From NCBI RefSeq assembly GCF_017307495.1, contig NZ_JAFKHE010000028.1:1-64000 (forward strand): a stretch of 64,000 nucleotides of DNA, given 5' to 3'. A model generated the notes under the pieces. That model saw only the letters and a list, made by a program, of their open reading frames with translations, made no database searches and was not told the DNA's origin. Both the position numbers and the translations under genes were made by a program. Positions within the stretch are counted from its first letter, which is position 1, and each line of letters begins with the position of its first letter. Positions 8,201 to 22,073 of the stretch are shown here, piece after piece. Origin of the DNA: Devosia sp. Lineage in GTDB: Bacteria; Pseudomonadota; Alphaproteobacteria; Rhizobiales; Devosiaceae.

Positions 8201-11200
8201 ATGAGCCGGCGTCTCCTCAAGCCCATGCCGGAGCAGATCGTGCTGCGCCAGCGCGATGCCTCGGACCCCGAGCGCAGCGTTTGGGTGACGGCGAACGCCG
8301 GCTCGGGCAAGACCTATGTGCTGACCGCCCGCGTGCTGCGCCTGCTGCTCAGTGGCGCCAAGCCGGAAGAAATCCTCTGCCTGACCTACACCAAGGCGGC
8401 CGCGGCGGAGATGCGCGGCCGCGTGGCCGAGCGCTTGGGGACGTGGGCGCTGGCGAGCGAGGACGATCTCACCGCCGAACTCACCGGGCTCAGCGGCAGG
8501 CCGCCGACCGACGACATGCGGCGACGCGCCCGCGCGCTGTTCGCGCACGCCCTCGAGGCGCCGGGCGGGCTGCGCATCCAGACCATCCACGCCTTCTGCG
8601 AGAGCGTGCTGCATCGCTTCCCGCGCGAGGCGGGCGTGCCGTTCGATTTCAGCGTGCTCGAGGAACACCAGCGCGACCTGATGCTGCTCGAAGCGCGCGA
8701 AACCGTGATCGCGCAAGGCCTGCGCGGCAGCGGCGAGGCGGCGGCGGTGGAGACGCTGTTCGGCCTGATGAGCGATTTCTCGATCGAGCAGGCGATCCTC
8801 GAGGCGCTGAACCAGCAGCGCAACCTGCGCCGCGTGCTGGCCGACCCGATGCGGGCCAAGCGCGAGCTCAGGCAACTGGTCGGCCATGCCGGGACGATCG
8901 ACGAGGTGCTCGACGAGCTCAGCTCGGGCTACACGCTGAGCCGGGCCGACCACGCCGAGATCTTCCGGCTGGTCGCGCCGGACCCCGGGGGCACCGGCTT
9001 CGTCGATCGGCTCGCCGAGGTTGATCCAGCGCGCCCCGAGCCCGATACGCTGATCGATGCCTTCCTCACCCAGGCCGACCGCACGCTGCGCAAGACCCTG
9101 CTCAAGAGGGCTACGGCAGCGCTGATCCCCGAGATCGCAGATCGTCTCGCGGCGGAGGGCGAACGCGTCGAGCGCCTCTACGGCAAGCTGGTCAAGGCCG
9201 AGCTGATCGCCCGCAGCGAAGCCATGCTCGACGTGGTCGCCGCCATCTCGGCGCATTACGAGAAGGCCAAGCGCGCCCGCTCGCTGCTCGATTTCGACGA
9301 CCTGATCGAAAAGCTGGCGGCGCTGCTGCGCAACGAGGCGCAGGGCCTGTGGGTGCGCTACAAGCTCGATGCCGGCCTCAGCCACATCCTCGTCGACGAG
9401 GGGCAGGACACCAACCCGCTGCAGTGGCAGGTGGTGGGAGCATTGATCGACGACTTCTTTTTCGGCGACAGCGCCGCCGACCGGCCGCGCACCCTGTTCG
9501 CGGTGGGCGACCAGAAGCAGTCGATCTTCTCGTTCCAGGGCGCCGATCCGGCCGTGTTCGTCGATGCCGGCCGGCAATATGCGTTCAGCGCCAAGGCCGC
9601 CGATTTCGAGATCACCCACGTGCCGCTGCGCCACAGCTTTCGCACGCTGCCCAATGTGCTGAACGCGGTGGACGAGGTGTTCAAGCGGCCCGACCTGCGC
9701 GCCGGCGCGCTCGAGGAGACAGGTGTCGTTCATGATACGGCACGATCCGAGGGCGGCGGCGTGGTGACATTGTGGCGGCCGATCCAGGACGAGGCGGAGC
9801 CAACCGACCCCGACAACTGGCCGACCGAGCCGCCGCTGATCCAGACGCAGAGCGCGCAGCGCAAGGTGGCCGAGCGCATCGCCCGGGAAATCCGAGGCTG
9901 GATCGATCTGAAGCGCCCGCTCGGCCCGCGCGGCCGGCCGGTGCGCGCCGACGACGTGCTGATCCTCGTGCAGGTGCGCAGCGTGCTGTTCCACGAGATC
10001 ATCCGGGCCCTGATCCGCGAGCGCATCCCGACGCCGGGCGCCGACCGGCTGGCGGTCACCACGCATATCGGCGTGCTCGACATGATGGCGCTGGGCGACG
10101 TGTTGAGTAATCCGGCCGACGACCTGCAGCTGGCGGCCCTGCTGCGCTCGCCGCTGTTCGACGTCAGCGAGGAGGACCTGCTGGAGCTGGCGCAGCCGCG
10201 CGGCGAAAACGAGCGGCTCTACTGGGCGATGAAAGGCTCGACCATCCCGTCGGTACAGGCGGCATTCGAGCAGCTCGAGAGCTGGCGCAACCGGCTCGAT
10301 TTCGAGCGGCCGTTCAACTTCTACGCCGACGTGCTCTATGCCGGCGGCGGCCTCAGGCGCATGCGCTCGCGCTTCGGCAGCGAGATCGACGACGTGATGG
10401 CGGAGTTCCTCGACCTTGCGCTCGAGCACGAGCAGGCGCCACAGCCTTCGCTGCTCGGCTTCCTCGCCGAGCTGCGCTCGCGCGAGGTGATCATCAAGCG
10501 CGAACTGGCCGAGGGCGGCGCGGGCGTACGGGTGATGACGGTGCATGGGGCCAAGGGCCTCGAAGCCCCGATCGTCATCCTCGCCGACGCGGCAACCACC
10601 GAGCGCGGGCGCGACCGGCGCAGCATCTACCTGCGGGCCAACCCGCCGCTCTTCATCCACGCCTCGTCCGCCGCGACGCATGTGGACGAGACGCGCGCGT
10701 TCAAGGACGAAGCCGACGGCGACCAGCAGGCCGAGTACTGGCGCAAGCTCTATGTCGCCATGACGCGGGCCGAGGACGAACTGTATGTCACGGGCTACCT
10801 CACCAAGATGGGGAAGGTCGAGGGCAGCTGGTACGAGGCGATCGAACAGGGCCTGAGCCCGCTGAGCGAGCCGGTGCTCGATGCCGAGGGCAAGCCGACG
10901 GCGCTGATCTATCCACGCGAGCGGCAGGTGGCAGCCCCGGCCGCCGCGGCGGCACAGCTGTCGCTCGACATGGCGCCGCCGCTGGTGCTGCCCCCCTTGC
11001 CGCCGCACCGGGCCCGGCAGGTCATCCGTCCGTCATCGGTCGACGCCCCGGCCGACCCCGAGCGGGCCCTGCAGACGCGCCTCGAGCAGAGCCTCGATCC
11101 GGAGACGGCGCGGCTCGCGGGCACGGCGCTGCATGCGCTGCTGCAACACCTGTCGCGGACGCCTCCCGAGCAGCGCGCGACAGTCGCCGCGCGGGCCCTG

Positions 11201-11623
11201 CCCCTGCTGCTGCCGGAAGCGCCGTCGCAGCACGAAGGGCTGGCGGGAAAGGCGATCTCGATCCTGTCGCGGCCGGACCTCGCACATCTGTTCGGACCCA
11301 ACAGCCGGGCCGAAGTGCCGTTCCTCGCCACGGCACTGCGCAACAGCCAAACGGTGACCATTGCCGGCCGCATCGACCGTCTGGTGGAAAGCGCGGACGA
11401 AATCCTGCTCGTCGATTTCAAGTCCGATGCCAGCCCGGCGATGGAACCCGATGGCATTCCAGGCGCTTACCAGAGGCAGCTGGCGCTCTATGCGCTCGCT
11501 GCAAGCCAGCTTTTCCCCCGCCATGCGGTCAGCGCCGCTATTCTCTGGACTAGCTTGGAATCGCTGGTAAAATTGTCACCGGCTGTTTTGGCGGAAGCGG
11601 CCCGGGGCTTCACCGTGCAGTGA
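8201..11623 (+). CDS. addA: Double-strand break repair helicase-nuclease AddA
   Basis: This UvrD/RecB-family 3'-5' helicase and nuclease is the A subunit of AddAB. The 1140 residues show Walker A ANAGSGKTYVLT (about 30-41), Walker B ILVDEGQDTNPLQW, motif III VGDQKQSIFSFQGADP, motif V MTVHGAKGLEAPIV and motif VI YVAMTRAEDELYVTGY. The C-terminal nuclease segment carries GRIDRLVE and LLVDFKSD. It begins 10 bp after addB, so the two form an operon. An in-frame ATG 24 nt downstream (8225) is a possible alternative start, since no strong Shine-Dalgarno marks 8201. Confidence 0.96.
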   Translation: MSRRLLKPMPEQIVLRQRDASDPERSVWVTANAGSGKTYVLTARVLRLLLSGAKPEEILCLTYTKAAAAEMRGRVAERLGTWALASEDDLTAELTGLSGRPPTDDMRRRARALFAHALEAPGGLRIQTIHAFCESVLHRFPREAGVPFDFSVLEEHQRDLMLLEARETVIAQGLRGSGEAAAVETLFGLMSDFSIEQAILEALNQQRNLRRVLADPMRAKRELRQLVGHAGTIDEVLDELSSGYTLSRADHAEIFRLVAPDPGGTGFVDRLAEVDPARPEPDTLIDAFLTQADRTLRKTLLKRATAALIPEIADRLAAEGERVERLYGKLVKAELIARSEAMLDVVAAISAHYEKAKRARSLLDFDDLIEKLAALLRNEAQGLWVRYKLDAGLSHILVDEGQDTNPLQWQVVGALIDDFFFGDSAADRPRTLFAVGDQKQSIFSFQGADPAVFVDAGRQYAFSAKAADFEITHVPLRHSFRTLPNVLNAVDEVFKRPDLRAGALEETGVVHDTARSEGGGVVTLWRPIQDEAEPTDPDNWPTEPPLIQTQSAQRKVAERIAREIRGWIDLKRPLGPRGRPVRADDVLILVQVRSVLFHEIIRALIRERIPTPGADRLAVTTHIGVLDMMALGDVLSNPADDLQLAALLRSPLFDVSEEDLLELAQPRGENERLYWAMKGSTIPSVQAAFEQLESWRNRLDFERPFNFYADVLYAGGGLRRMRSRFGSEIDDVMAEFLDLALEHEQAPQPSLLGFLAELRSREVIIKRELAEGGAGVRVMTVHGAKGLEAPIVILADAATTERGRDRRSIYLRANPPLFIHASSAATHVDETRAFKDEADGDQQAEYWRKLYVAMTRAEDELYVTGYLTKMGKVEGSWYEAIEQGLSPLSEPVLDAEGKPTALIYPRERQVAAPAAAAAQLSLDMAPPLVLPPLPPHRARQVIRPSSVDAPADPERALQTRLEQSLDPETARLAGTALHALLQHLSRTPPEQRATVAARALPLLLPEAPSQHEGLAGKAISILSRPDLAHLFGPNSRAEVPFLATALRNSQTVTIAGRIDRLVESADEILLVDFKSDASPAMEPDGIPGAYQRQLALYALAASQLFPRHAVSAAILWTSLESLVKLSPAVLAEAARGFTVQ

Positions 11624-11703
11624 CATTCATTGAACGGATGCTGGACTCTACCTAGCTTTTGGATCAAACAGACCGCCGCTTTCAACCCAAAAGGCAAATT
11701 CTT

Positions 11704-12027
11704 ATGACAACCCACGTTTCCGACGCCAATTTTGGCGAGGAAGTCCTGTCCTCGAAAGAGCCCGTACTCGTCGACTTCTGGGCCGAGTGGTGCGGCCCGT
11801 GTCGCGCCATTTCTCCGGTCCTCGAAGAGCTGTCGAGCGAGCTCCAGGGCAAGGTGAAGATCGTCAAGCTGAACGTCGATGAGAACCCGAACACCACCGT
11901 CAAGTACGGTGTGCGGTCGATCCCGACGATGATCCTGTTCAAGGGCGGCGAAGCCGCCGACATGAAGATCGGCGCCGGTACCCCCAAGGCGGGCCTCGCC
12001 AAGTGGCTGGAGAGCCACGCCGCCTGA
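11704..12027 (+). CDS. trxA: Thioredoxin 1 (WCGPC)
   Basis: This is a cytosolic disulfide reductase of 107 residues with the canonical active site EWCGPC (Cys30 and Cys33), the cis-proline segment SIPTMILF and buried Asp25. An upstream extension to 11659 is open but lacks family similarity. The ATG at 11704 is preceded by AAAAGG (11688-11693) and gives the standard length. It follows addA by 80 bp, as is usual in this order, and is followed by a strong terminator. A second thioredoxin gene of identical length lies directly downstream. Confidence 0.95.
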   Translation: MTTHVSDANFGEEVLSSKEPVLVDFWAEWCGPCRAISPVLEELSSELQGKVKIVKLNVDENPNTTVKYGVRSIPTMILFKGGEAADMKIGAGTPKAGLAKWLESHAA

Positions 12028-12057
12028 GGGCGCGGGCACTCGCCTGAGACTTCGATC

Positions 12058-12087
12058 AACGCCGCTGGCCCAGCCGGCGGCGTTTTT
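12058..12087 (+). terminator. Intrinsic terminator after trxA
   Basis: A 12-bp stem AACGCCGCTGGC/GCCGGCGGCGTT with one G-T wobble and a 3-nt loop is followed by a T run. It separates the two tandem thioredoxin genes, so the second needs its own promoter. Confidence 0.85.
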
Positions 12088-12233
12088 GCCTGGGGGGCCG
12101 CGCAGGCCCCTCACGGAGGCCGTTCCGGCGACAGTGGGAATGTCGTTCCGCCCACCAAAGCGTGAAAACCCATTCCTTTCCTTCCGCTGCGACTCCCGCT
12201 AGCTTCCATCGGCAATCAACGATGGAGGCTCGG

Positions 12234-12557
12234 TTGGGCCAGCGCGTGAACGACCAGAATTTCGATGCCGAAGTGCTCGGCGCCAAGGAACCCGTGCTGG
12301 TGGACTTCTGGGCCGAATGGTGCGCGCCGTGCAAGGCGATGGACCCCATCCTCGACCAGCTTGGCGAGGAGCTTGCCGGCAGGGTGAAGATCGTCAAGCT
12401 TGACGTCGACAACAACCCGGGCACCACCGTCAAATACAATGTCCGCGCCATGCCGACGCTCATCGTGTTCAAGGATGGCGAGCCGGTTGACTACAAGGTC
12501 GGGGCCGGCCAGTCGCGTGTGCAGCTGATCAAGTGGCTGGACCAGTTCGCGGCCTGA
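12234..12557 (+). CDS. Thioredoxin 2, tandem paralogue (WCAPC)
   Basis: This is a second thioredoxin of 107 residues. It can be aligned with TrxA by eye without gaps, including both Cys (30 and 33), but the active site is EWCAPC rather than EWCGPC. Other retained features are VLVDFWAEWC, KIVKLDVDNNP and AMPTLIVFKDGEP. An open frame extends upstream to 12162 with an ATG at 12222. I prefer the TTG at 12234, because GGAGG (12224-12228) lies 5 nt before it and the resulting protein is exactly as long as TrxA. The change in the CXXC dipeptide usually shifts redox potential, so a distinct role is possible. It may reflect a local duplication, though that is inference. Confidence 0.88.
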   Translation: MGQRVNDQNFDAEVLGAKEPVLVDFWAEWCAPCKAMDPILDQLGEELAGRVKIVKLDVDNNPGTTVKYNVRAMPTLIVFKDGEPVDYKVGAGQSRVQLIKWLDQFAA

Positions 12558-12630
12558 TTTGCGGCGCGACACGCGGCCCGTGCTCAATGTCGGCCGGCAG
12601 CGCGAGCGACAGGGCCGCTGAGCCTGCCGC

Positions 12631-12728
12631 TCCCCTCCCGCCCTGAGGGGAGGGGTTGGGGGTGGGGGTCCATCGGTGATCACCTGGCCACCCCCTCCCT
12701 CGATCCCTCCCCTCAAGGGGGAGGGAGG
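12631..12728. repeat. Palindromic element, copy 1 (GGTCCATCGG core)
   Basis: Two CCCTCCC...GGGAGGG-type palindromic arms flank a conserved core GGGTCCATCGGTGATCAC. A close copy with the same core (one base different) lies at 44651-44744. It fills the gap between the convergent trx2 and folC genes. It is probably a non-autonomous REP/BIME-like element and could act as a bidirectional terminator. Confidence 0.8.
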
Positions 12729-12743
12729 CACACCGTCCCCCAG

Positions 12744-14066
12744 TCAGGTCGGCGGCGTGCCGTTCTGGTGCAGCACGTGGCCGGCGAGGTAGAGCGAGCC
12801 GGCAAAGACCACGCGCATCGGGTGGCCGAGCGCCGCTGCGGCGGCGAGCGCGTTGAGGATCGACGCCGATTCCACCGCATCGAACCCGGCTGCTCGCGCC
12901 TCGGCAGCGATGGCGGCGGCGGGATGCGCGTTCGGCTCGCCCGGGATGGTGAGGGCGAAGACCTTCTCGGGCATGCCGGCGAAGGGGGCGAGGAAATCGG
13001 CGGGCTTGCGCGTGTTCATCAGGCCCATGATCAGCACCATGGGCAGGTGGCGATTGTCGTCCATCTGTCTCAGCGCCAGGGCCAGGGCGGCGGCGCCGTG
13101 GGCGTTGTGGCCGCCGTCGAGCCAGAGTTCGGAACCCTCGGGCAGCATCTGCAGCAGCGTGCCATGCACGGGCGCGAGACGGGCCGGCCATTGGACCGAA
13201 CGCAGGCCCTCGGCAATCTGCGCCTCGCTCACCGGCAGGCCGAAATGGCGGGTCGCGGCAATGGCGAGCGCGGCGTTGTCGAACTGGTGCGGCCCGATCA
13301 GCGCCGGCGGCGGCAGGTCGAGCAGCCCTTGCTCGTCGTGGTAGACCAGCCGGCCATCCTCGGGGCGGCCGTCGAAGTCCTCGCCCATCACCAGCGGGGT
13401 GATGCCGAGCCTGGCCGCCCGGCGCACCAGCACGTCGCGGCCCTCGGCGCGCTGGCGGCCGAACACGGCCCTGGCGCCGCGCTTGAGGATGCCGGCCTTG
13501 CTCACCGCGATCTCGCCCACCGTGTTGCCGAGGAAGGCCTGGTGGTCGTAGTCGACGGGCGTGATGACGACGCCCAGCGGGTGCTTGACGACGTTCGAAG
13601 CGTCATAGGTGCCGCCCATGCCGGTCTCGAGCAGCAGGTAATCCGCCTTCACCTCGGCAAACAGCTTGAATGCCGCGGCCGTGGTGATCTCGAAGAAGGT
13701 GATCGGATCGCCGCCGTTCGCCTCTTCACAGAACAGCAGAGCCTGGTTGAGCTTGCGCGACGACACCAGCTTGCCGGCGAGGCGAATGCGCTCGTTGAAG
13801 CGTACGAGGTGCGGCGAGGTCATCACATGCACCTTCTTGCCCGAGGCCTCGAGGAAGGCGCGCAGATACGCGATGGTCGAGCCCTTGCCGTTGGTGCCGG
13901 CCACGTGGATCACCGGCGGCAGGTGGTCCTCCGGATGGCCGATCTTGCCCAGCAGCCGCTCGATGCGATCGAGGCTCAGGTCGATAAGCTTTGGATGCAG
14001 CGCGAGGAGGCGCTTCAGGATGGCGTCGGTGCGGGACACGGGAACCAGATTCTCGAACAGCAGCAT
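12744..14066 (-). CDS. folC: Bifunctional folylpolyglutamate synthase / dihydrofolate synthase
   Basis: This cytosolic Mur-ligase-like enzyme adds glutamate to dihydropteroate and extends the glutamate tail of folates. The 440 residues have the ATP-binding loop HVAGTNGKGST (about 54-64), TSPHLVRFNERI, the ETGMGGTYDASNV segment, ITPVDYDHQAFLG and a C-terminal domain with LDGGHNAHG. It is last in a minus-strand run trpF-trpB-trpA-(small genes)-accD-folC, 45 bp after accD. The accD-folC pairing is common in proteobacteria. It converges on trx2 across a palindromic element. Confidence 0.96.
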   Translation of the reverse strand: MLLFENLVPVSRTDAILKRLLALHPKLIDLSLDRIERLLGKIGHPEDHLPPVIHVAGTNGKGSTIAYLRAFLEASGKKVHVMTSPHLVRFNERIRLAGKLVSSRKLNQALLFCEEANGGDPITFFEITTAAAFKLFAEVKADYLLLETGMGGTYDASNVVKHPLGVVITPVDYDHQAFLGNTVGEIAVSKAGILKRGARAVFGRQRAEGRDVLVRRAARLGITPLVMGEDFDGRPEDGRLVYHDEQGLLDLPPPALIGPHQFDNAALAIAATRHFGLPVSEAQIAEGLRSVQWPARLAPVHGTLLQMLPEGSELWLDGGHNAHGAAALALALRQMDDNRHLPMVLIMGLMNTRKPADFLAPFAGMPEKVFALTIPGEPNAHPAAAIAAEARAAGFDAVESASILNALAAAAALGHPMRVVFAGSLYLAGHVLHQNGTPPT

Positions 14067-14111
14067 GGCGCGCTTCTAGCACCCCGATATCGCTCGATGA
14101 AGGGCGTGCCG

Positions 14112-15071
14112 TTACTCGGCGTGCGCGGCCTCCGGCACGCCGACGAGGTCGTCGCCGGCACCGGCCGCCACCGGGGTCGCGAGGCGGGCCGGGGCGCTTT
14201 CGCTCAGTTCCTCGCGCTGCGGCGCCTTGGTCAGGAGCCCGACGATGGAACCGATGGTCTCGCGCAGGTTGTGGCGGTGGACGACCATGTCGACCATGCC
14301 GTGCTCGTACAGGTATTCCGAACGCTGGAAGCCCTTTGGCAGCTTCTCGCGAATGGTCTGCTCGATGACGCGCGGGCCGGCAAAGCCGATCAGCGCGCCC
14401 GGCTCGGCCAGGTGCACGTCGCCCAGCATGGCATAGGACGCGGTGACGCCGCCGGTCGTGGGGTTGGTGAACACCACGATGAAGGGCAGTCCGGCCTCGC
14501 GCAGGCGCAGCACGCCGACGGTAGTGCGCGGCATCTGCATCAGGGAGAGCACGCCCTCCTGCATGCGGGCGCCGCCCGAGGACACGAAGAGGATGAAGGG
14601 CGTCTTCCGGTGCGCGGCGGTCTCGAGGCCGGTGACGATGGCCGAGCCGGCAGCCATGCCGAGCGAGCCGCCCATGAAATCGAAATCCTGCACGGCGACG
14701 GTGACGGCCTGGCCGAACAGCTCGCCGGTCGCGACCGTGACGGCGTCCTCGGCGCCGGTCTTCAGGCGCTGCTCCTTGAGGCGATCGACATAGCGCTTGC
14801 TGTCCCGGAACTTCAGCGGATCGGTGGCCACCTGCGGCAGCGGCACGGTGTCGTACCTGCTGTCGTCGAGGAAGGTCGCGAGCCGGTCGGAAGCCTTGAT
14901 CTTCATGTGGTAGCCGGAATTGGGCACCACCCACATGTTGGCCTCGAGGTCGCGGTAGAACACCATCTCGCCCGACTCGGGGTCCTTGACCCAGAGGTTC
15001 TCCGATCCGGTGTCCTTCGGCTTCAAGAAGGAGCGGATGCGGGGACGGACGACGTTGTTGATCCAGTTCAT
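14112..15071 (-). CDS. accD: Acetyl-CoA carboxylase carboxyltransferase subunit beta, without zinc-ribbon cysteines
   Basis: With AccA, this subunit transfers CO2 from carboxybiotin to acetyl-CoA in the first step of fatty-acid synthesis. The 319 residues have the usual crotonase-like core, including [16 protein letters not shown] and [13 protein letters not shown]. The N-terminal zinc ribbon is degenerate: the positions equivalent to the four E. coli cysteines are Asp30, Ser33, Val49 and Ser52 (WVKDPESG and [10 protein letters not shown]). As far as I recall the same loss is shared by other Hyphomicrobiales AccD, so it is probably a clade trait and not damage. It lies 140 bp downstream of the HicB-like gene and 45 bp upstream of folC. 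Confidence 0.95.
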
Positions 15072-15163
15072 TGCCTAGCCTGTGCAGCTGCCGCTTTGCC
15101 GGTGCGTTGGGGCACCGGATGCGGGCCTATATGGTGATTGTGGCGAATATTATCAGCATCGCT

Positions 15164-15184
15164 CCCCGTGGTTAAGCCACGGGG
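15164..15184. other. Hairpin between hicB-like gene and accD
   Basis: A perfect 8-bp stem CCCCGTGG/CCACGGGG has a 5-nt loop. No T tract follows on either strand, so it is not a classical terminator. It could stabilise or attenuate the trp-hicB transcript before accD. Confidence 0.45.
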
Positions 15185-15211
15185 CTGGCCTTGGTAACCG
15201 GATTTGGTGGC

Positions 15212-15433
15212 TCAGGCGATAGCCGCCACACCGGACGGCGGCGGAATTTCGCGGCCCGCGTCTCGTGCGGCCTCGAGCCACATCTCGATGGCGTCCTGCA
15301 CGTTTGCGATCGCCTCCTCCGGCGTCTCACCGTCGCTCATGCAGCCCGGCAGATCGGGCACTGTCGCAGCAAACCCGCCGCCATCCGCCGCAGACAGGGG
15401 CGAGACGATCACGGGGTAAGTGAGCTGGGTCAT
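15212..15433 (-). CDS. HicB-like antitoxin family protein, no HicA partner
   Basis: This 73-residue protein has the compact HicB fold signature: YPVIVSPLSAADGGGFAATV, then PDLPGCMSDGETPEEAIANV and AIEMWLEAARDAGREIP. HicB proteins are usually antitoxins that neutralise the RNA-cleaving HicA toxin and autoregulate. No C-terminal DNA-binding extension is present, and no HicA-like frame is visible on either side. The gene upstream, 15 bp away on the same strand, encodes an unrelated zinc-ribbon protein. The pair is inserted between trpA and accD. The start is the ATG at 15433. The family is clear, but an antitoxin role without a toxin is not established. Confidence 0.8.
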   Translation of the reverse strand: MTQLTYPVIVSPLSAADGGGFAATVPDLPGCMSDGETPEEAIANVQDAIEMWLEAARDAGREIPPPSGVAAIA

Positions 15434-15448
15434 CCCGAGTACTTCGTC

Positions 15449-15640
15449 CTAGATACCTTGAGCACCACCGTCGCACTTAGGGCATCGTCTATGGTGAAAA
15501 TCTGAGCCGTTCGCGCCGTAAACATGACCACACCCATCGCGCTCGCATTGCAGCGCCCACTGATTGTGGTCGGTGCCCCTGAACTCGGTCTTCCGCAGTA
15601 GGCGCTGTCTATTGCGATTGATTTCGCCTTCCTCCGCCAC
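15449..15640 (-). CDS. Small zinc-ribbon protein of unknown function
   Basis: This short protein of about 63 residues has a C-x4-C (LQCERDGCGHVYG) and a C-x2-C (RRCPKCDGG) pair that could bind one zinc. The spacer GANGSDFHHRR is rich in polar residues. The pattern resembles small uncharacterised proteins sometimes seen near HicB-like genes; I do not recognise a function. The frame begins with GTG at 15640, 10 bp after trpA, inside a duplicated GAGGAAGGCGAA sequence, so the exact start is uncertain and the N-terminal residues may be fewer. It probably forms one transcription unit with the HicB-like gene. Confidence 0.6.
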   Translation of the reverse strand: MAEEGEINRNRQRLLRKTEFRGTDHNQWALQCERDGCGHVYGANGSDFHHRRCPKCDGGAQGI

Positions 15641-15650
15641 TTCGCCTTCC

Positions 15651-16478
15651 TCAGGCCGCCTTGGCCCGCTTCACGCCGCTCGCGAGGCCCGCGACCATGG
15701 TGGTCACTGCCGCGACCGTGCCAGCGGTGGCCTTGCCGTTGTCGAGCGAGCCGAGCACCGCGTTGCAGATCGCCGTGCCGACGGCGACGCCGTCGGATTC
15801 GCGACCGAACGTGGCAGCATCGTCGGCCGTCTTGATGCCGAAGCCGACGACCACGGGCAGGTCGGTATGGCTCTTGATCCGCTGGACGGCGGCGCCCACT
15901 CCGGCGTTCGCCTTGATGGTCGCGCCGGTGATGCCGGTCATCGAGACGTAGTAGACGAAGCCCGAGGTGTTGTTCAGCACGGCCGGCAGGCGCGCGTCGT
16001 CGGTGGTCGGCGTGGCGAGGCGGATGAAGTTGAGGCCGGCCTTCAGCGCCGGGATGCAAAGCTCCTCGTCTTCCTCGGGCGGCAGGTCGACGACGATCAG
16101 GCCGTCGACGCCCGCGGCCTTGGCGGCGGCGAGGAAGGCGTCGACGCCGAAGATGTAGATGGGGTTGTAGTAGCCCATCAGCACGATGGGGGTCTCGTCG
16201 TCCTTGCGGCGGAAGGCCTCGACCATGGCCAGGGTCTTCTTCATGTTCTGGCCCGCCGCCAGCGCGCGCTGGCCGGCGGCCTGGACGCCGGGGCCATCGG
16301 CCATCGGGTCGGAGAACGGCATGCCGAGTTCAATGATATCGGCGCCGGCAGCCGGCAGCGCATCGAGGATGGCCTGGCCGGTGGCGGGGTCGGGATCGCC
16401 CGCCATGGTGTAGGTGGCGAGCGCCGGACGGCCCTCGGCGACACATTTGGCAAAGCGGGCGGGAATGCGGGTGGTCAT
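15651..16478 (-). CDS. trpA: Tryptophan synthase alpha subunit
   Basis: This subunit cleaves indole-3-glycerol phosphate to indole and glyceraldehyde 3-phosphate and channels indole to TrpB. The 275 residues carry the catalytic Glu and Asp in [16 protein letters not shown] (about 46-61), the flexible loop with TDDARLP, and the phosphate-binding [12 protein letters not shown]. Its ATG directly follows the TrpB stop codon without any gap, a sign of translational coupling. Downstream come the zinc-ribbon and HicB-like genes instead of accD directly. Confidence 0.97.
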
Positions 16479-17699
16479 CTACTCGATCAATCCCAGGTAA
16501 CGGCCGACGCTCTCGACATCCTTGTCGCCGCGGCCCGAGAGGCAGAGGACGATGGTCTCGTCCTTCTTCATGGTCGGCGCCAGCTTGATCACTTCGGCGA
16601 GGCCGTGGGCGCTCTCCAGCGCCGGGATGATGCCCTCAAGCTTGGTGCAGAGCTGGAAGGCCTCGAGCGCCTCGTTGTCGGTGATCGGCACGTAGGTGAC
16701 GCGCTTGGTGTCGTGAAGGTACGAGTGCTCGGGACCCACGCCGGGATAGTCGAGGCCGGCCGAAATGGAGTGGCCCTCGAGGATCTGGCCGTCGGCGTCC
16801 TGCAGCAGGTAGGTGCGATTGCCGTGCAGCACGCCGGGGCGGCCGCCGGTCATCGAGGCGGCGTGGCCGTTCTCGACGTCGATGCCGTGCCCGCCGGCTT
16901 CGGCGCCATAGAGGCGAACCGACGGATCGTCGAGGAAGGCATGGAAGGTGCCGATGGCGTTCGAGCCGCCGCCCACGCAGGCCACGACGGCATCGGGCAG
17001 CTTGCCCTCGGCCTCGAAGAACTGGGCCTTGATCTCCTCGCCGATCACCGACTGGAAGTTGCGCACCATCTCGGGATAGGGGTGCGGGCCGGCGGCGGTG
17101 CCGATCAGGTAGTAGGTCGTCTCGACATTCGTCACCCAGTCGCGCAGCGCCTCGTTCATGGCGTCCTTGAGCGTGCCGGCGCCGGAGGTGACCGGGCGGA
17201 CCTCGGCGCCGAGCATCTTCATGCGCAGCACGTTCGGCCACTGCCGCTTCACGTCGGTGGCGCCCATGAAGATGGTGCAGGGCAGGCCGAAGCGGGCGCA
17301 GACCGTGGCGGTGGCGACGCCATGCTGGCCAGCGCCGGTCTCGGCGATGATGCGGGTCTTGCCCATGCGCTGGGCCAGCAGGATCTGGCCGATGCAGTTG
17401 TTGAGCTTGTGCGAGCCGGTGTGGTTCAGTTCCTCGCGCTTGAAGTACACCCTGGCGCCGCCAAGTTGCGCGGTAAGGCGCTCGGCGAAATAGAGCGGCG
17501 AGGGCCGGCCGGTATAGTGCTCGCCGAGATCCTTGACCTGGGCCTGGAAGGCGGGATCGACCTGGGCGGCACGATAGGCCTTCTCGAGGTCGAGGATCAG
17601 CGGCATCAGCGTCTCGGCAACGAAGCGGCCGCCATAGATACCGAAACGACCCTGCTCGTCGGGGCCGTTGCGAAGGGAGTTGGCCCGGATCGCAGTCAC
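16479..17699 (-). CDS. trpB: Tryptophan synthase beta subunit
   Basis: This PLP enzyme condenses indole with serine to form tryptophan. The 406 residues contain the Schiff-base lysine in [10 protein letters not shown] (about 90-99), the catalytic Glu in [11 protein letters not shown], and the PLP phosphate loop [13 protein letters not shown]. It lies 13 bp after trpF and abuts trpA, in the usual trpFBA order of Hyphomicrobiales where trpF is detached from the other trp genes. Confidence 0.98.
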
Positions 17700-17712
17700 T
17701 TGTCGCTAGCTC

Positions 17713-18363
17713 CTATGGGTGCGCGGCGCGCGCACTGTCGATGAAGGCCCTGATCAGTGCCGCGTCCTTGACGCCGGGCGCGGTCTCGACGCCGGATGAG
17801 ACATCGACGCCCATTGGCCGAACGGCCCTGATCGCCTCGCCCACCGTCGCGGGAGTAAGGCCACCGGAAAGCATGAACGGCACGCTGGGGTCAAGCGCCT
17901 TGAGCAGGCCCCAGTCAAACGACACGCCCAGCCCTCCGGGCCGGTCCGCACCCTTGGGCGGCTTGGCGTCGAGCAGGATCCGGTCGGCCGCCTCGACGAA
18001 GTCGGCGACCCGCGCCACGTCCTCGGCGGTGCCGATGGAAAGCGCCTTGAGAATGGCGATGCCGGCCTCGTCGCGGATGGCCTCGACGCGATGCGGGGTT
18101 TCCGGTCCGTGCAGCTGGATCCAGTCCGGCGACAGGGCCGCGACTTCCATCACCGTCGAGTTGTCCGGATTGACGAGGACGACGCAGGTTTCGACCCGCC
18201 CCCGGGCCTTCGAGATCAGCTCCTGCAACGTCTCCAGCCCGACATGCCGCGGACTGCGCTCGAAATGCATGAAGCCGACGATGTCGGCGCCGGCGTCTAT
18301 GGCCGCGTCGAGCAGTGCAGGCGTCTTGATGCCACAGATCTTGACGACGAGAGGGTCCGGCAT
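17713..18363 (-). CDS. trpF: Phosphoribosylanthranilate isomerase
   Basis: This TIM-barrel enzyme of tryptophan synthesis converts phosphoribosylanthranilate to CdRP. The 216 residues show the catalytic Cys in VKICGIKT (about 7-14) and the catalytic Asp in RILLDAKPPKG. The phosphate-binding segments FMLSGGLTPATVGEA and GVDVSSGVE are near the C-terminus. It is 13 bp downstream of lapA and 13 bp upstream of trpB on the minus strand. Confidence 0.97.
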   Translation of the reverse strand: MPDPLVVKICGIKTPALLDAAIDAGADIVGFMHFERSPRHVGLETLQELISKARGRVETCVVLVNPDNSTVMEVAALSPDWIQLHGPETPHRVEAIRDEAGIAILKALSIGTAEDVARVADFVEAADRILLDAKPPKGADRPGGLGVSFDWGLLKALDPSVPFMLSGGLTPATVGEAIRAVRPMGVDVSSGVETAPGVKDAALIRAFIDSARAAHP

Positions 18364-18376
18364 GGGAGGTCTTGGG

Positions 18377-18730
18377 TCAGCTGGTATGGGCGAAATCTTC
18401 AGCGCCGAGCGCCGAGTGCGGTTCGGGCGAGCGGCGAGCGAGCTCGAGCTCGCGATGCAGCCGTTCGGTCTCGCGCCGGAAATGGCGTTCGTCGCGGCGG
18501 TGCGAGCCCTGGGCGAACCAGGCCGCGACGCCGCCGAGCACGACGCCGACGAGGAGCACCGCGAACAACACCAGGAACAGCGGCACGCCGACGCCGGGCG
18601 CGGTCAGCGCTTCCACCGGGGCGAACGGATTGAAATTGACGACGACCAGTTGCCGGTTGGCGAGCGCGAACACGATCAGCGCCGCGCACAGCGGCACCAG
18701 CACGAACCAACCGACGACCCGCCTAATCAT
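18377..18730 (-). CDS. lapA: LapA-family (DUF1049) inner membrane protein
   Basis: This is a small membrane protein of 117 residues with two transmembrane helices (about 8-28 and 48-70) and the LapA/DUF1049 signature FALANRQLVVVNFNPF between them. A cytoplasmic arginine/glutamate-rich tail (RRDERHFRRETERLHREL) probably forms a coiled coil. In E. coli LapA acts with LapB in control of LPS synthesis through LpxC; here the role is inferred from the family only. It sits between ihfB and trpF with short gaps of 13-15 bp. Confidence 0.85.
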   Translation of the reverse strand: MIRRVVGWFVLVPLCAALIVFALANRQLVVVNFNPFAPVEALTAPGVGVPLFLVLFAVLLVGVVLGGVAAWFAQGSHRRDERHFRRETERLHRELELARRSPEPHSALGAEDFAHTS

Positions 18731-18745
18731 GGGAACTGCCAGACA

Positions 18746-19030
18746 TCATTCGGCGCGATTGATCCGTTCTCGGATTTCCTTGCCGGCCTTGAACTGCGGC
18801 ACGTACTTCTCGCCCACGTCCACGGTCTCGCCGGTCCGGGGGTTGCGCCCGACGCGGGCCGGACGGTTCTTGACCGAGAAGGCGCCGAAACCGCGCAACT
18901 CGACCCGGTCACCCCGCGCCATCGCGTCGCCGACCTCATCGAGGATGGCGTTGACGATGTTCTCGATATCCCGCTGGAACAGATGCGGATTTTCTTCGGA
19001 CAGTCGCTGCACGAGTTCGGACTTGATCAT
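18746..19030 (-). CDS. ihfB: Integration host factor subunit beta
   Basis: This is the DNA-bending nucleoid protein subunit of the HU/IHF family, 94 residues. It starts [10 protein letters not shown] and has the beta-arm segment [20 protein letters not shown] with the intercalating proline. The C-terminus [12 protein letters not shown] is typical. It lies in the conserved order sppA-ihfB-lapA-trpF. In addition to chromosome structuring, IHF commonly assists sigma-54 promoters; rpoN is elsewhere in this window. Confidence 0.95.
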
Positions 19031-19064
19031 ACCGCCCCCCGGCGCTTCCTACGGACAATGAATG

Positions 19065-20012
19065 TCACATCGGCTGCTGAGCGTGCCAAAGCGAGACCAG
19101 CCCGTCAAGCGACATCGCCTCGCCTACGCCGGAACGGACCACCTCGGCCGCGCTCCGGCCCAGCCAGCGGGTGATCCCGCCCCAGCCGGCCTCGGGCCGC
19201 GGGAAGTAGTCCACGACCGGCAGGTCGGCCGGCACCTGCTTGTCAGACTCGAGCCAGGCAACGGCCTCGGCCTCGCCGCCAATGGCGTCAATCAGCCGCG
19301 TCTCGATGCCTTTCCGCCCAGTGATGATGCGGCCGTCGGCGAGAGCCAGCGTCTCGGGCCGCGACAGCCCGCGACGCTCCGAAACGATGTCGACGAACCA
19401 CACGAACGAATCGTTGACCAGTGCCTGCAGCGAGGCGCGCACCTCACCCTGCATGGGCTCGTTGAGGTCGGGCTCGGCCTTGAGCGGTCCGGTTGACACC
19501 TTGTCCAGGGCGATGCCGATGGTAGACAGCAGCTTGCCGGCATCGACATGCTGGTAGAGCACGCCGATCGAGCCGACGATCGACAGGCGGCGCGCGAAGA
19601 TGCGGTCGGCCGCGATGGCGGTCATGTAGGCGGCCGAGGCCCCGAGCTCGTCGATGGTCGCGACCACCGGCTTGGTCTTGCGCAGGGTGCTCAGCGCCTC
19701 GTAGAGCTCCTCGCCGCCGGCGGTGGTGCCGCCGGGCGAGTTGATCGACACGATCACCGCCTTGACCGCGGCGTTGTCGGCAAGATCGGTCAGCACCTTC
19801 AGCCGCTCGCGGTCGGTGGTGATGGTCCCGGCAATGGTCACCCTTGCGATGCGGTCGCCGGGCGCACCCCCCTCGAGGGCGAAGCGGCCGGCGATGGCGA
19901 TGACCGCAACCGCGAGCGCCACGAAGAACAGGACCCGCCAGGTCCGTCGCGAGCGCCTGAGCACGCGGTTGGCGGGAACCAGGTGGGCGGGATCGCCGGG
20001 AGTATCGGTCAT
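19065..20012 (-). CDS. sppA: Signal peptide peptidase SppA (short, 36K type)
   Basis: This inner-membrane serine protease degrades cleaved signal peptides. The 315 residues have one N-terminal TM helix (about 24-42) preceded by an Arg-rich cytoplasmic stretch, then a ClpP-like domain with VSINSPGGTTAGGEELY. The catalytic Ser is in ELGASAAYM and the likely catalytic Lys in STGPLKAEPDL. An open frame extends to 20102, but the ATG at 20012 has GAGG upstream and gives the family's usual N-terminus. It is first in the minus-strand sppA-ihfB-lapA-trp run. Confidence 0.93.
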   Translation of the reverse strand: MTDTPGDPAHLVPANRVLRRSRRTWRVLFFVALAVAVIAIAGRFALEGGAPGDRIARVTIAGTITTDRERLKVLTDLADNAAVKAVIVSINSPGGTTAGGEELYEALSTLRKTKPVVATIDELGASAAYMTAIAADRIFARRLSIVGSIGVLYQHVDAGKLLSTIGIALDKVSTGPLKAEPDLNEPMQGEVRASLQALVNDSFVWFVDIVSERRGLSRPETLALADGRIITGRKGIETRLIDAIGGEAEAVAWLESDKQVPADLPVVDYFPRPEAGWGGITRWLGRSAAEVVRSGVGEAMSLDGLVSLWHAQQPM

Positions 20013-20123
20013 GGGAGGCCTCGAGCCGAACACGTGGACAGCAGGTAGCCCGTGGCGGGGCCGCAATGCAAGCGGCCCGCGCCCCGGCGTGCCGGCGCTC
20101 ATGGGCGCCCGCCGCGGGAGACT

Positions 20124-20816
20124 TCAGCGCCGGCGCGCGATCATGGAAATGGTGGCCAGGTCCTCGGGCCGGTTTGCCGGGGCGAGGCCGAACAGCGCGC
20201 GCACCATGTCGGGCAGCAGGGCCTCGAGGCTTGCCGCCGCGGTGGCGACGGGGCCGAACTGTCCGGCGAGCATCAGGCCGGCGAAGCCATGGGCCAGGCT
20301 CCACAGGGCCGCGATCTGGCGTGCCGACTGCGGCTCGCTCATCGGCTCGCGCCGTCCCAGGAAGGCGCCGACGGCATCGGCTGCCAGCCCGAAGCTTTCC
20401 GCCCCCGCCGCGAGCAGCCCGGGATCGTCAGGGCGGAGGCGCTCGCGCCGGAACATCAGGCCGAACTCGCCGGGATGCTCGAGCGCAAAGCGGACGTAGC
20501 CCAGGGCGGAGGCGATCACGTGTTCGGCCGAGCCCCGCTCGGCCCGTGCGATGGCCTCCCGCATGGTTGCGGCAAGCTTGGCCTGGGCGGCGATGGCCAC
20601 CTCGGTGAGGAGCCCGGTGACATCGCCGAAGTGGTGCGCCGGCGCCGCATGGGAAACCCCGGCCCGTCGCGCGCAACCGCGCAGCGTCAGGCCTTCGATG
20701 CCCTTTTCGGCGAGTTCCTCGACCGCGGCGGCAAGCAGGGCCTTGCGCAGGTCGCCGTGATGGTAGGGCCGGGATTGGGCGGGGAGCGGCGCGGATTGGT
20801 CGACAGGGGTGATCAT
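20124..20816 (-). CDS. TetR/AcrR-family regulator with WHG-type C-terminal domain
   Basis: This is a 230-residue repressor with an N-terminal TetR helix-turn-helix (ALLAAAVEELAEKGIEGLTL, then AGVSHAAPAHHF, about 27-70) and a C-terminal ligand-binding domain containing SLAHGFAGLMLAG, like the WHG class. It faces a small membrane-protein gene across a 111-bp gap that contains a perfect-looking operator (20841-20868), so it most likely controls itself and that gene. The ligand is unknown. Confidence 0.92.
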   Translation of the reverse strand: MITPVDQSAPLPAQSRPYHHGDLRKALLAAAVEELAEKGIEGLTLRGCARRAGVSHAAPAHHFGDVTGLLTEVAIAAQAKLAATMREAIARAERGSAEHVIASALGYVRFALEHPGEFGLMFRRERLRPDDPGLLAAGAESFGLAADAVGAFLGRREPMSEPQSARQIAALWSLAHGFAGLMLAGQFGPVATAAASLEALLPDMVRALFGLAPANRPEDLATISMIARRR

Positions 20817-20840
20817 GTCCCTGACTAGCGCCGGATCATG

Positions 20841-20868
20841 ACGGTGTCAAAATCAATCTTGACACTGT
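20841..20868. promoter_or_regulatory. TetR operator and embedded promoter
   Basis: The inverted repeat ACGGTGTCAA (20841-20850) and TTGACACTGT (20859-20868) matches at 9 of 10 positions around an 8-nt spacer. TTGACA, a perfect -35 hexamer, occurs at 20859-20864 facing the membrane-protein gene and also on the opposite strand facing the tetR gene. Repressor binding would block both directions. Confidence 0.7.
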
Positions 20869-20927
20869 AAAGTTGATGACGTAGAGCCACGACGGGTCGC
20901 AAGGGGCGACCGGAGGGAGATGGTGAA

Positions 20928-21479
20928 ATGCCGAGGATCCTGTTCTGGACGCTGGCCGGGGCGACGCTCGCGCTCTACCTGACAATGCTCGCCTGGTCGC
21001 TGCCGACTGTGTCGGCCGGGTCCGGAGGGCTAGCTCCGTTCGACATGCGGCCTGGCGGCTACAGCTTCGAGGAGGCGCGGCAGTTCCTGGCGTCACTGAC
21101 GCCCGCGGCGGCACGATTCTACCGCGAGGTGCAGCATGCGCTGGATATCGCCTATCCCGCGCTCAACGCCTTGACGCTGTTCCTCGCCATCGCTGCCCTG
21201 CTCCCGCGTCGCCTTGGCGCCTGGCGCTTCGCATGCGCGGCCCCCGCCCTGCTGGTGGCGCCGCTCGACTGGCTCGAGAACGGCGCCGTCGCGCTCATGC
21301 TCGATGCCGGAGCCGACGGGGTGACGGCGCAGATGGTCGCGACGGCAAGCGGCTGGACGCAGTTGAAGTCGACGGCGACAGCCATCGCCATGTCCGCCGT
21401 GCTGCTGCTTCTCGTCGTGAAGGCGGGCCGGGCATGGGCCGGGCGCCTGCGCCAGCGAAACGTCAGTCGAGCCGCCTGA
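20928..21479 (+). CDS. Four-helix integral membrane protein of unknown function
   Basis: This 183-residue protein has hydrophobic segments at about 4-27, 72-92, 98-118 and 145-168. The loop between the first two is periplasmic or cytoplasmic and contains GGYSFEEARQFLASLTPAA. I do not recognise a catalytic motif. It starts at the ATG 20928 behind GGAGGG and is transcribed divergently from the TetR gene, so it is the likely regulated target. Its 3' end overlaps the convergent GNAT gene by 17 bp. Confidence 0.8.
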   Translation: MPRILFWTLAGATLALYLTMLAWSLPTVSAGSGGLAPFDMRPGGYSFEEARQFLASLTPAAARFYREVQHALDIAYPALNALTLFLAIAALLPRRLGAWRFACAAPALLVAPLDWLENGAVALMLDAGADGVTAQMVATASGWTQLKSTATAIAMSAVLLLLVVKAGRAWAGRLRQRNVSRAA

Positions 21480-21975
21480 CCATGTAGCGGGCGGTTTCCT
21501 CGTAGCTCAGCAGCTTGCCATAGAGCTCGGGGACGTCGGTCACCGCAAAGCCGTGGCGCTCCCAGAACGGGATGGAGCCGTTGACGGCAACCAGCGTCAT
21601 GGTCGGGTAGCCCTCGGCGACGGCGTGCTTGTGCAGCGCCTCGACGATCCTAGACGCAGCGCCGATGCGGCGGGCCACCGGCAGCAGGCAGAGGTCGTGC
21701 AGGTAGTAGGTGTCGGGCTCGGCCGGCAGGCGCTTCAGCAGCGTATTGAGCGGGGGGAGCGAGGCGTAGGTCCAGGGGTGGCTCAGGACGTAGCCGGCCG
21801 GCTTCTCGCCGATCTCGAGCAAGTAGCAGCCGTGCTGGTAGAGCTTCAGGCGCTCGGCCAGCACCTCGGGGGACTCGAAGAAATCGACATGCACGGTGTC
21901 GGCAATGCCTTGCACCGCCGGCAAGTCGTAGGCGGTCATGGCGCGCCAGGCGACATCGTTCAAAACCATCGGCAT
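21463..21975 (-). CDS. GNAT-family N-acetyltransferase
   Basis: This predicted acetyl-CoA-dependent acetyltransferase has 170 residues and the GNAT core YYLHDLCLLPVARRIGAASR as the acetyl-CoA pyrophosphate-binding region. NGSIPFWERHGF follows, a typical motif-B end. The substrate is unknown. It lies between the membrane protein (convergent, overlapping 17 bp) and rpsA. It is part of a small accessory insertion between sppA and rpsA, which are close neighbours in many relatives. Confidence 0.85.
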   Translation of the reverse strand: MPMVLNDVAWRAMTAYDLPAVQGIADTVHVDFFESPEVLAERLKLYQHGCYLLEIGEKPAGYVLSHPWTYASLPPLNTLLKRLPAEPDTYYLHDLCLLPVARRIGAASRIVEALHKHAVAEGYPTMTLVAVNGSIPFWERHGFAVTDVPELYGKLLSYEETARYMVRRLD

Positions 21976-22073
21976 TCCCCAAACAACGGCCGTACCCGCC
22001 CCGACGCTGACCGGCGCGTCCGCTCACCGAGGTCATTCCCGGTGGGCAAACGGGTCGAAGCGGACATTGTCTC

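Follow-up and report, generated by a model that had tools for sequence, protein, structure and literature searches.

An ordinary hicAB toxin-antitoxin locus between trpA and accD has probably decayed in the window (the whole stretch of DNA that was analysed, 64,000 nucleotides in length), leaving hicB as an orphan and a foreign gene for a small four-cysteine (C4), zinc-ribbon-like protein in the place of hicA, with the two genes apparently not paired in function. The site looks like an instance of gene turnover at a toxin-antitoxin site rather than a new two-gene system, and is real but ordinary.

Organization of the locus

The features of the region are as follows, in the direction of transcription of the minus strand.

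15651..16478, minus strand: trpA, the upstream neighbour, whose stop lies 10 bp before the C4 gene
15449..15640, minus strand: C4 zinc-ribbon-like gene, an ORF of 63 aa with a GTG start, occupying the place of hicA
15212..15433, minus strand: hicB, an ORF of 73 aa with an ATG start that matches PF15919, an orphan HicB-like antitoxin domain
15164..15184, minus strand: 8-bp perfect hairpin, CCCCGTGG CTTAA CCACGGGG, between hicB and accD, without a T run
15126..15156, minus strand: possible accD promoter region CTGATAATATTCGCCACAATCACCATATAGG, from comparison by eye
14112..15071, minus strand: accD, the downstream neighbour, present in all 19 genomes sampled from the genus, its own included

The order on the minus strand is trpB, trpA, 10 bp, the C4 gene, 15 bp, hicB, 140 bp, accD, and folC, with the trpA stop at 15651 and the accD start at 15071. 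We take the flanking genes to be trp, accD, and folC by recognition of their sequences, and trpA also by its place after trpB. The ORF coordinates agree with the preliminary description, in which the C4 and hicB genes lay on one strand at spacings of 10 and 15 bp. The gap of 10 bp makes co-transcription with the trp genes plausible. Translation of the C4 gene and hicB would most likely use the 3′ portion of the trp message, and with so short a gap ribosomes ending trpA could probably move on to the C4 gene and, after it, to hicB.

With regard to accD, the core (GCCACAAT) of the element upstream of it is kept in 18 of the 19 genus genomes, while the remainder varies (by eye). For this reason accD may have its own promoter, and the comparison suggests that it is located in the element at 15126-15156; a consensus promoter scan returned none. 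The hairpin region between hicB and accD has a fold z of -1.69 (12 of 200 shuffles fold equally well), and a 6-bp version of the hairpin occurs 3′ of trpA in one congener (G014). No tRNA that might have served as an insertion site was found within 10000-22000 of the window. A terminator-like site on the plus strand (15594-15616), inside the C4 gene but on the opposite strand, was attributed to chance, two such sites being found against a shuffle mean of 1.7. Elsewhere in the window, 11659-12027 and 12162-12557 hold tandem thioredoxin-like genes with the motifs WCGPC and WCAPC.

The orphan antitoxin gene hicB

The 73-aa product of hicB matches PF15919 with 57 bits (cut-off 27, E 2.9e-15) and UPF0150 with 31.8 bits (cut-off 27.3), both in Pfam, and is a bona fide HicB-domain protein of the kind found in HicAB type II toxin-antitoxin systems (PF07927/PF15919, COG1724/COG1598). 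Longer HicB proteins carry an RHH or HTH domain, whereas the window protein corresponds to the N-terminal domain only, its length leaving no space for such a DNA-binding part. In Sinorhizobium meliloti, HicB contacts HicA through its N-terminal domain and the promoter through its C-terminal domain (PMC6327479). The window HicB, consisting of the HicA-binding domain alone, is probably idle locally, or might neutralise a related HicA arriving on mobile DNA.

The window genome differs from an ordinary HicAB carrier in having no related hicA: no match at E <= 0.01 was obtained when it was searched with a genus-type HicA query. The slot holds no hicA either, so that for HicA of the genus type the earlier view of a hicB without any HicA stands. 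Solitary hicB genes are known, for example two in a defence island of Methanosarcina barkeri (PMC10865869). The likeness to the window is an antitoxin gene without its toxin; the difference is that in the window the vacated toxin place is filled by an unrelated gene, behind trpA and in no defence island.

The GC3 of hicB is 0.79, at the 3% mark of the distribution of host pieces. Its product is 86% and 84% identical to those of the hicB genes in the same slot of two congeners (G015 and G017, respectively). Differences among the three genes are mostly synonymous (dN/dS ~0.05-0.06, a rough estimate because synonymous sites are near saturation). The value between G015 and G017 alone is 0.06 and both have a damaged hicA, so hicB appears to be under strong protein-level constraint despite the damage and is therefore more than debris. 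Moreover, the hicB frame is open in 6 of 6 genomes with the genus-type gene (at >=70% identity), while hicA is intact in one of them only (G008).

The same slot in congeners

The accD region was taken from 18 congeners, with trpA-accD gaps measured from the final trpA residue in the alignment. The junction measures ~96-268 bp with no gene recognised in 7 of the 18, the gap is ~1.1 kb in three, no trpA lies within 1.5 kb of accD in six, and hicA plus hicB lie between the two genes in two (G015 and G017). The statement that trpA normally stands directly before accD in relatives is accordingly only partly right.

In G015 and G017, the order is trpA-hicA-hicB-accD. The start of hicA is 2 bp past the trpA stop, and hicA read in the frame it had originally would overlap hicB as ATGA. 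In both, the gene has suffered a one-base deletion at the identical alignment column, ~20 codons from its end:

L039 1263-1500: damaged hicA of G015
L040 1263-1500: damaged hicA of G017

The first 59 codons are open in both species and show a dN/dS of ~0.24 between them, which leaves room for continued production of a truncated HicA; the tail past the deletion is near neutral (0.31/0.39). An identical deletion in two well-separated species could mark an ancient truncation in a gene that continues to be expressed, or else a site of frameshifting.

The same hicAB family is also found beside a serA-like gene in G008 (L043), G012 (L042), and G018 (L041). Of these three, each with an open hicB, G008 has an intact hicA (80 aa, overlapping hicB) and G012 and G018 have a damaged one. 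The G008 HicA reaches 19 bits against PF07927, under the cut-off of 27, and no NCBIfam model matched the genus-type HicA. The naming is nevertheless reasonable because hicB is adjacent and because the G015 and G017 genes contain GGSHYK, which we take to be the HicA motif carrying its His.

The C4 gene of the window stands in the position that hicA holds in G015 and G017. When the slot is aligned with those of the two species, trpA and hicB match well, and no convincing similarity to hicA is seen between them (by eye). A HicA-profile search of the window at E 0.1 gave no match. On these two results a relic of hicA at or next to the C4 gene, for which the preliminary description had advised a profile search, was rejected.

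The accD tree puts the window together with G015 and G017 in a group of eight (fork support 91/95, inner order partly open). The other five of this group are without the genus-type hicB, and the three bearers form no clade (2 changes). A single gain of hicAB followed by later loss would be a simple story for this tree, one that the tree does not force. Because the slot of G015 and G017 holds hicA and then hicB, the window hicB most likely survives from an ordinary hicAB locus, and the remnant that the preliminary description offered as an alternative gains support from the damaged hicA beside hicB in that slot. The sequence of events may be pictured as follows. An ancestor of some members of the genus would have acquired an ordinary mobile hicAB locus in the trpA-accD interval, and a one-base deletion would have damaged hicA. 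Presumably after this damage, a foreign and probably mobile C4 gene would have replaced hicA immediately downstream of trpA in the window lineage, with hicB left as an orphan antitoxin.

The C4 protein and its family

The 63-aa C4 protein has its four cysteines at C32, C37, C53, and C56. It reached no cut-off in Pfam (best E 0.041), had no match in NCBIfam or PADLOC, and gave E 0.07-0.1 at best in PHROGs; the family libraries were also tried with its relatives, and no name or function was found for the family. The family is nonetheless genuine, with 15 invariant columns across 12 aligned members, including three of the four cysteines (the first is absent in one row). Polar residues are conserved besides the cysteines (e.g., D24, H25, Q27, N44, D47, H49, and R51), and the window protein carries the family core GTDHxQ...C...CG..YGANGSDFHxRxCPxCxGG. 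It differs from the other 11 aligned relatives in missing two residues (mostly YI or YV) before the first cysteine. The AF2 model (pLDDT 83.5) has three strands and a short helix. A fold search with this model gave nothing significant, the top hit being RNA polymerase II chain I with E 2.0, and neither did a comparison of the sequence profile with the PDB (E 3.1).

The C4 gene is foreign to its host. Its GC3 is 0.60, below the host minimum of 0.65 among 2424 overlapping 63-codon pieces from six window genes, and the family had no match in any of the 18 congeners, including G015 and G017 with hicB in the slot. Matches were found in at least 5 of 135 other genomes of the window's taxonomic family, at least 9 of 396 of the order (one weak), at least 1 of 384 of the class, and at least 4 of 397 of the phylum (two weak, with stops); the genome samples overlap, and the frequencies are lower bounds since the larger samples were scored for part of the first-look candidates. 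Relatives also occur at 13 loci in named species genomes and in 8 virus-labelled contigs.

The gene is probably mobile. Two of 72,556 plasmid records contain a relative, one being a 2.8-Mb record and the other a 4.5-kb plasmid of Roseomonas mucosa, in which the unannotated relative (L089 404-592) lies just before a mobilization-annotated gene; this plasmid is typed as non-mobilizable. No match was found at E 0.01 among 50,697 phage records, and none in plasmids when the C4 stretch was searched as DNA.

Restriction operons and fusions

Nine loci (L004-L007, L009, L011, L012, L061, and L062) are type I restriction operons in which a C4 gene separates hsdS from hsdR. Pfam and PADLOC identified the subunits of L004, and Pfam the HsdS of L062; the remaining subunits were assigned from their resemblance to these. 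The L004 C4 gene (3983-4225) begins 17 bp past hsdS, with a stop that overlaps the start of hsdR, and L011 and L062 have extra sequence between the C4 gene and hsdR. The C4 gene of L003 follows a protein with an HSDR_N domain. The C4 genes of the hsd operons (Rhodobacter-group records and two genomes of the window's taxonomic family) encode proteins 50-56% identical to that of the window, which differs from them in having trpA and hicB as neighbours with no hsd gene, and two residues fewer.

The C4 domain also forms the C-terminus of a conserved protein of ~300 aa beginning with IGIDYSGA (L071, L073, L074, and L075) and of a shortened protein of this type (L017). This fusion partner gave no Pfam match in the two members scanned, and its NCBIfam similarity is weak; from its motif spacing, we liken it to RNase-H-like nucleases. 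In addition, an SRAP gene adjoins the C4 gene in L068-L070 and a phage terminase gene in L066, while about ten further loci have no linked gene that was recognised. Judged by its position between hsdS and hsdR and its fusions elsewhere, the C4 protein probably acts independently of HicB, as a small accessory factor that binds nucleic acids in DNA-processing or restriction systems.

Recurrence and alternative explanations

The preliminary description considered that the two genes may form a two-gene system distinct from classical HicAB, in which case adjacency of the two families should recur. No HicB was found, with a HicB profile built for the analysis, in the flanks of 33 of 33 distinct C4 loci (L002-L014, L017, L060-L064, L066-L071, L073-L078, L088, and L089, of which L068-L070 are close relatives of one another). 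Duplicates had been removed (L015, same as L010; L065, same as L060; L072, same as L002; L080, same as L077), as had three weak loci (L079, L086, and L087, the last two with an internal stop), which show no HicB either. Flanks extend 1.5-4 kb where the contig allows, and a HicB past a contig end would be missed where they are shorter (276 bp on one side in L010, 272 bp in L071). HicB-profile matches in L089 (E 0.16) and L088 (E 0.32) were taken as chance, as were weak HicA-profile matches near the C4 relatives of L067 (E 0.01) and L005 (E 0.026, antisense to hsdR). This lack of HicB in the sample, an outcome that the preliminary description had itself named as refuting, removes the support for a recurring pair, which was rejected, and the congeners, none of which gave a match to the C4 family, lend the two-gene system no support either.

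A new toxin-antitoxin pair, in which the C4 protein would be a toxin or RNA-binding effector under HicB in place of HicA, is consistent with the place of the gene, its strand, its close spacing, and the polar residues that the family keeps beyond its cysteines. It is very improbable, however, as the arrangement is seen in one genome only and the family occurs in restriction operons and other settings without HicB. HicA-HicB pairs are moreover reported never to be mixed with other partners, domain fusions excepted (PMC2701414), so that a functional replacement of HicA would be a surprise. No paper in the literature searched combines "HicB" and "zinc ribbon". Of the earlier proposal that the C4 protein replaces HicA as the partner, the positional half is upheld (the gene fills the hicA slot), but nothing beyond position speaks for the functional half. 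More speculative still, with hardly any weight given to it, is a version in which a nucleic-acid-targeting effector of a defence-linked family displaced HicA and would now be held in check by the inherited HicB; the family is called defence-linked because of its presence inside type I restriction operons and its fusion to a protein likened by motif spacing to RNase-H-like nucleases. If this were true, an antitoxin would have gained a new, unrelated partner through gene replacement.

It is also unlikely that hicB has been domesticated for a host function and kept past the decay of hicA, the C4 gene being a passenger. The low dN/dS and the open frame in every genome with the gene would fit such a role, but the estimate suffers from near-saturated synonymous sites and the five congeners of the nearest group do without the genus-type gene. 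Decay of the C4 gene as junk on its way to loss is distinctly improbable. The two residues missing before the first cysteine could be read in this way, yet the reading frame with its start and stop is undamaged, none of the four cysteines is lost, and the gene differs from its nearest relatives chiefly at synonymous sites (dN/dS ~0.06-0.07 against L072 and L064; dS is saturated against L010 and L060), although most of the history behind these values predates arrival in the window lineage.

The preferred reading, decay of hicAB with a foreign gene in the vacated place, also has points against it. The C4 gene fits the hicA slot within a few bases, a neat coincidence for a chance insertion. The constraint on hicB between G015 and G017 persists despite their damaged hicA, and that hicA, with its 59 open codons, may be alive. 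The three hicB-bearing genomes form no clade on the accD tree, and the genus-type HicA is sub-threshold in PF07927 and absent from NCBIfam.

Implications

The locus offers a clear snapshot of toxin-antitoxin turnover, from entry beside a housekeeping operon through loss of the toxin and survival of the antitoxin to a foreign occupant. The placement of the C4 family in restriction operons merits more attention than the window locus itself, and a protein encoded between the type I specificity and restriction subunits could be an overlooked accessory or regulator.
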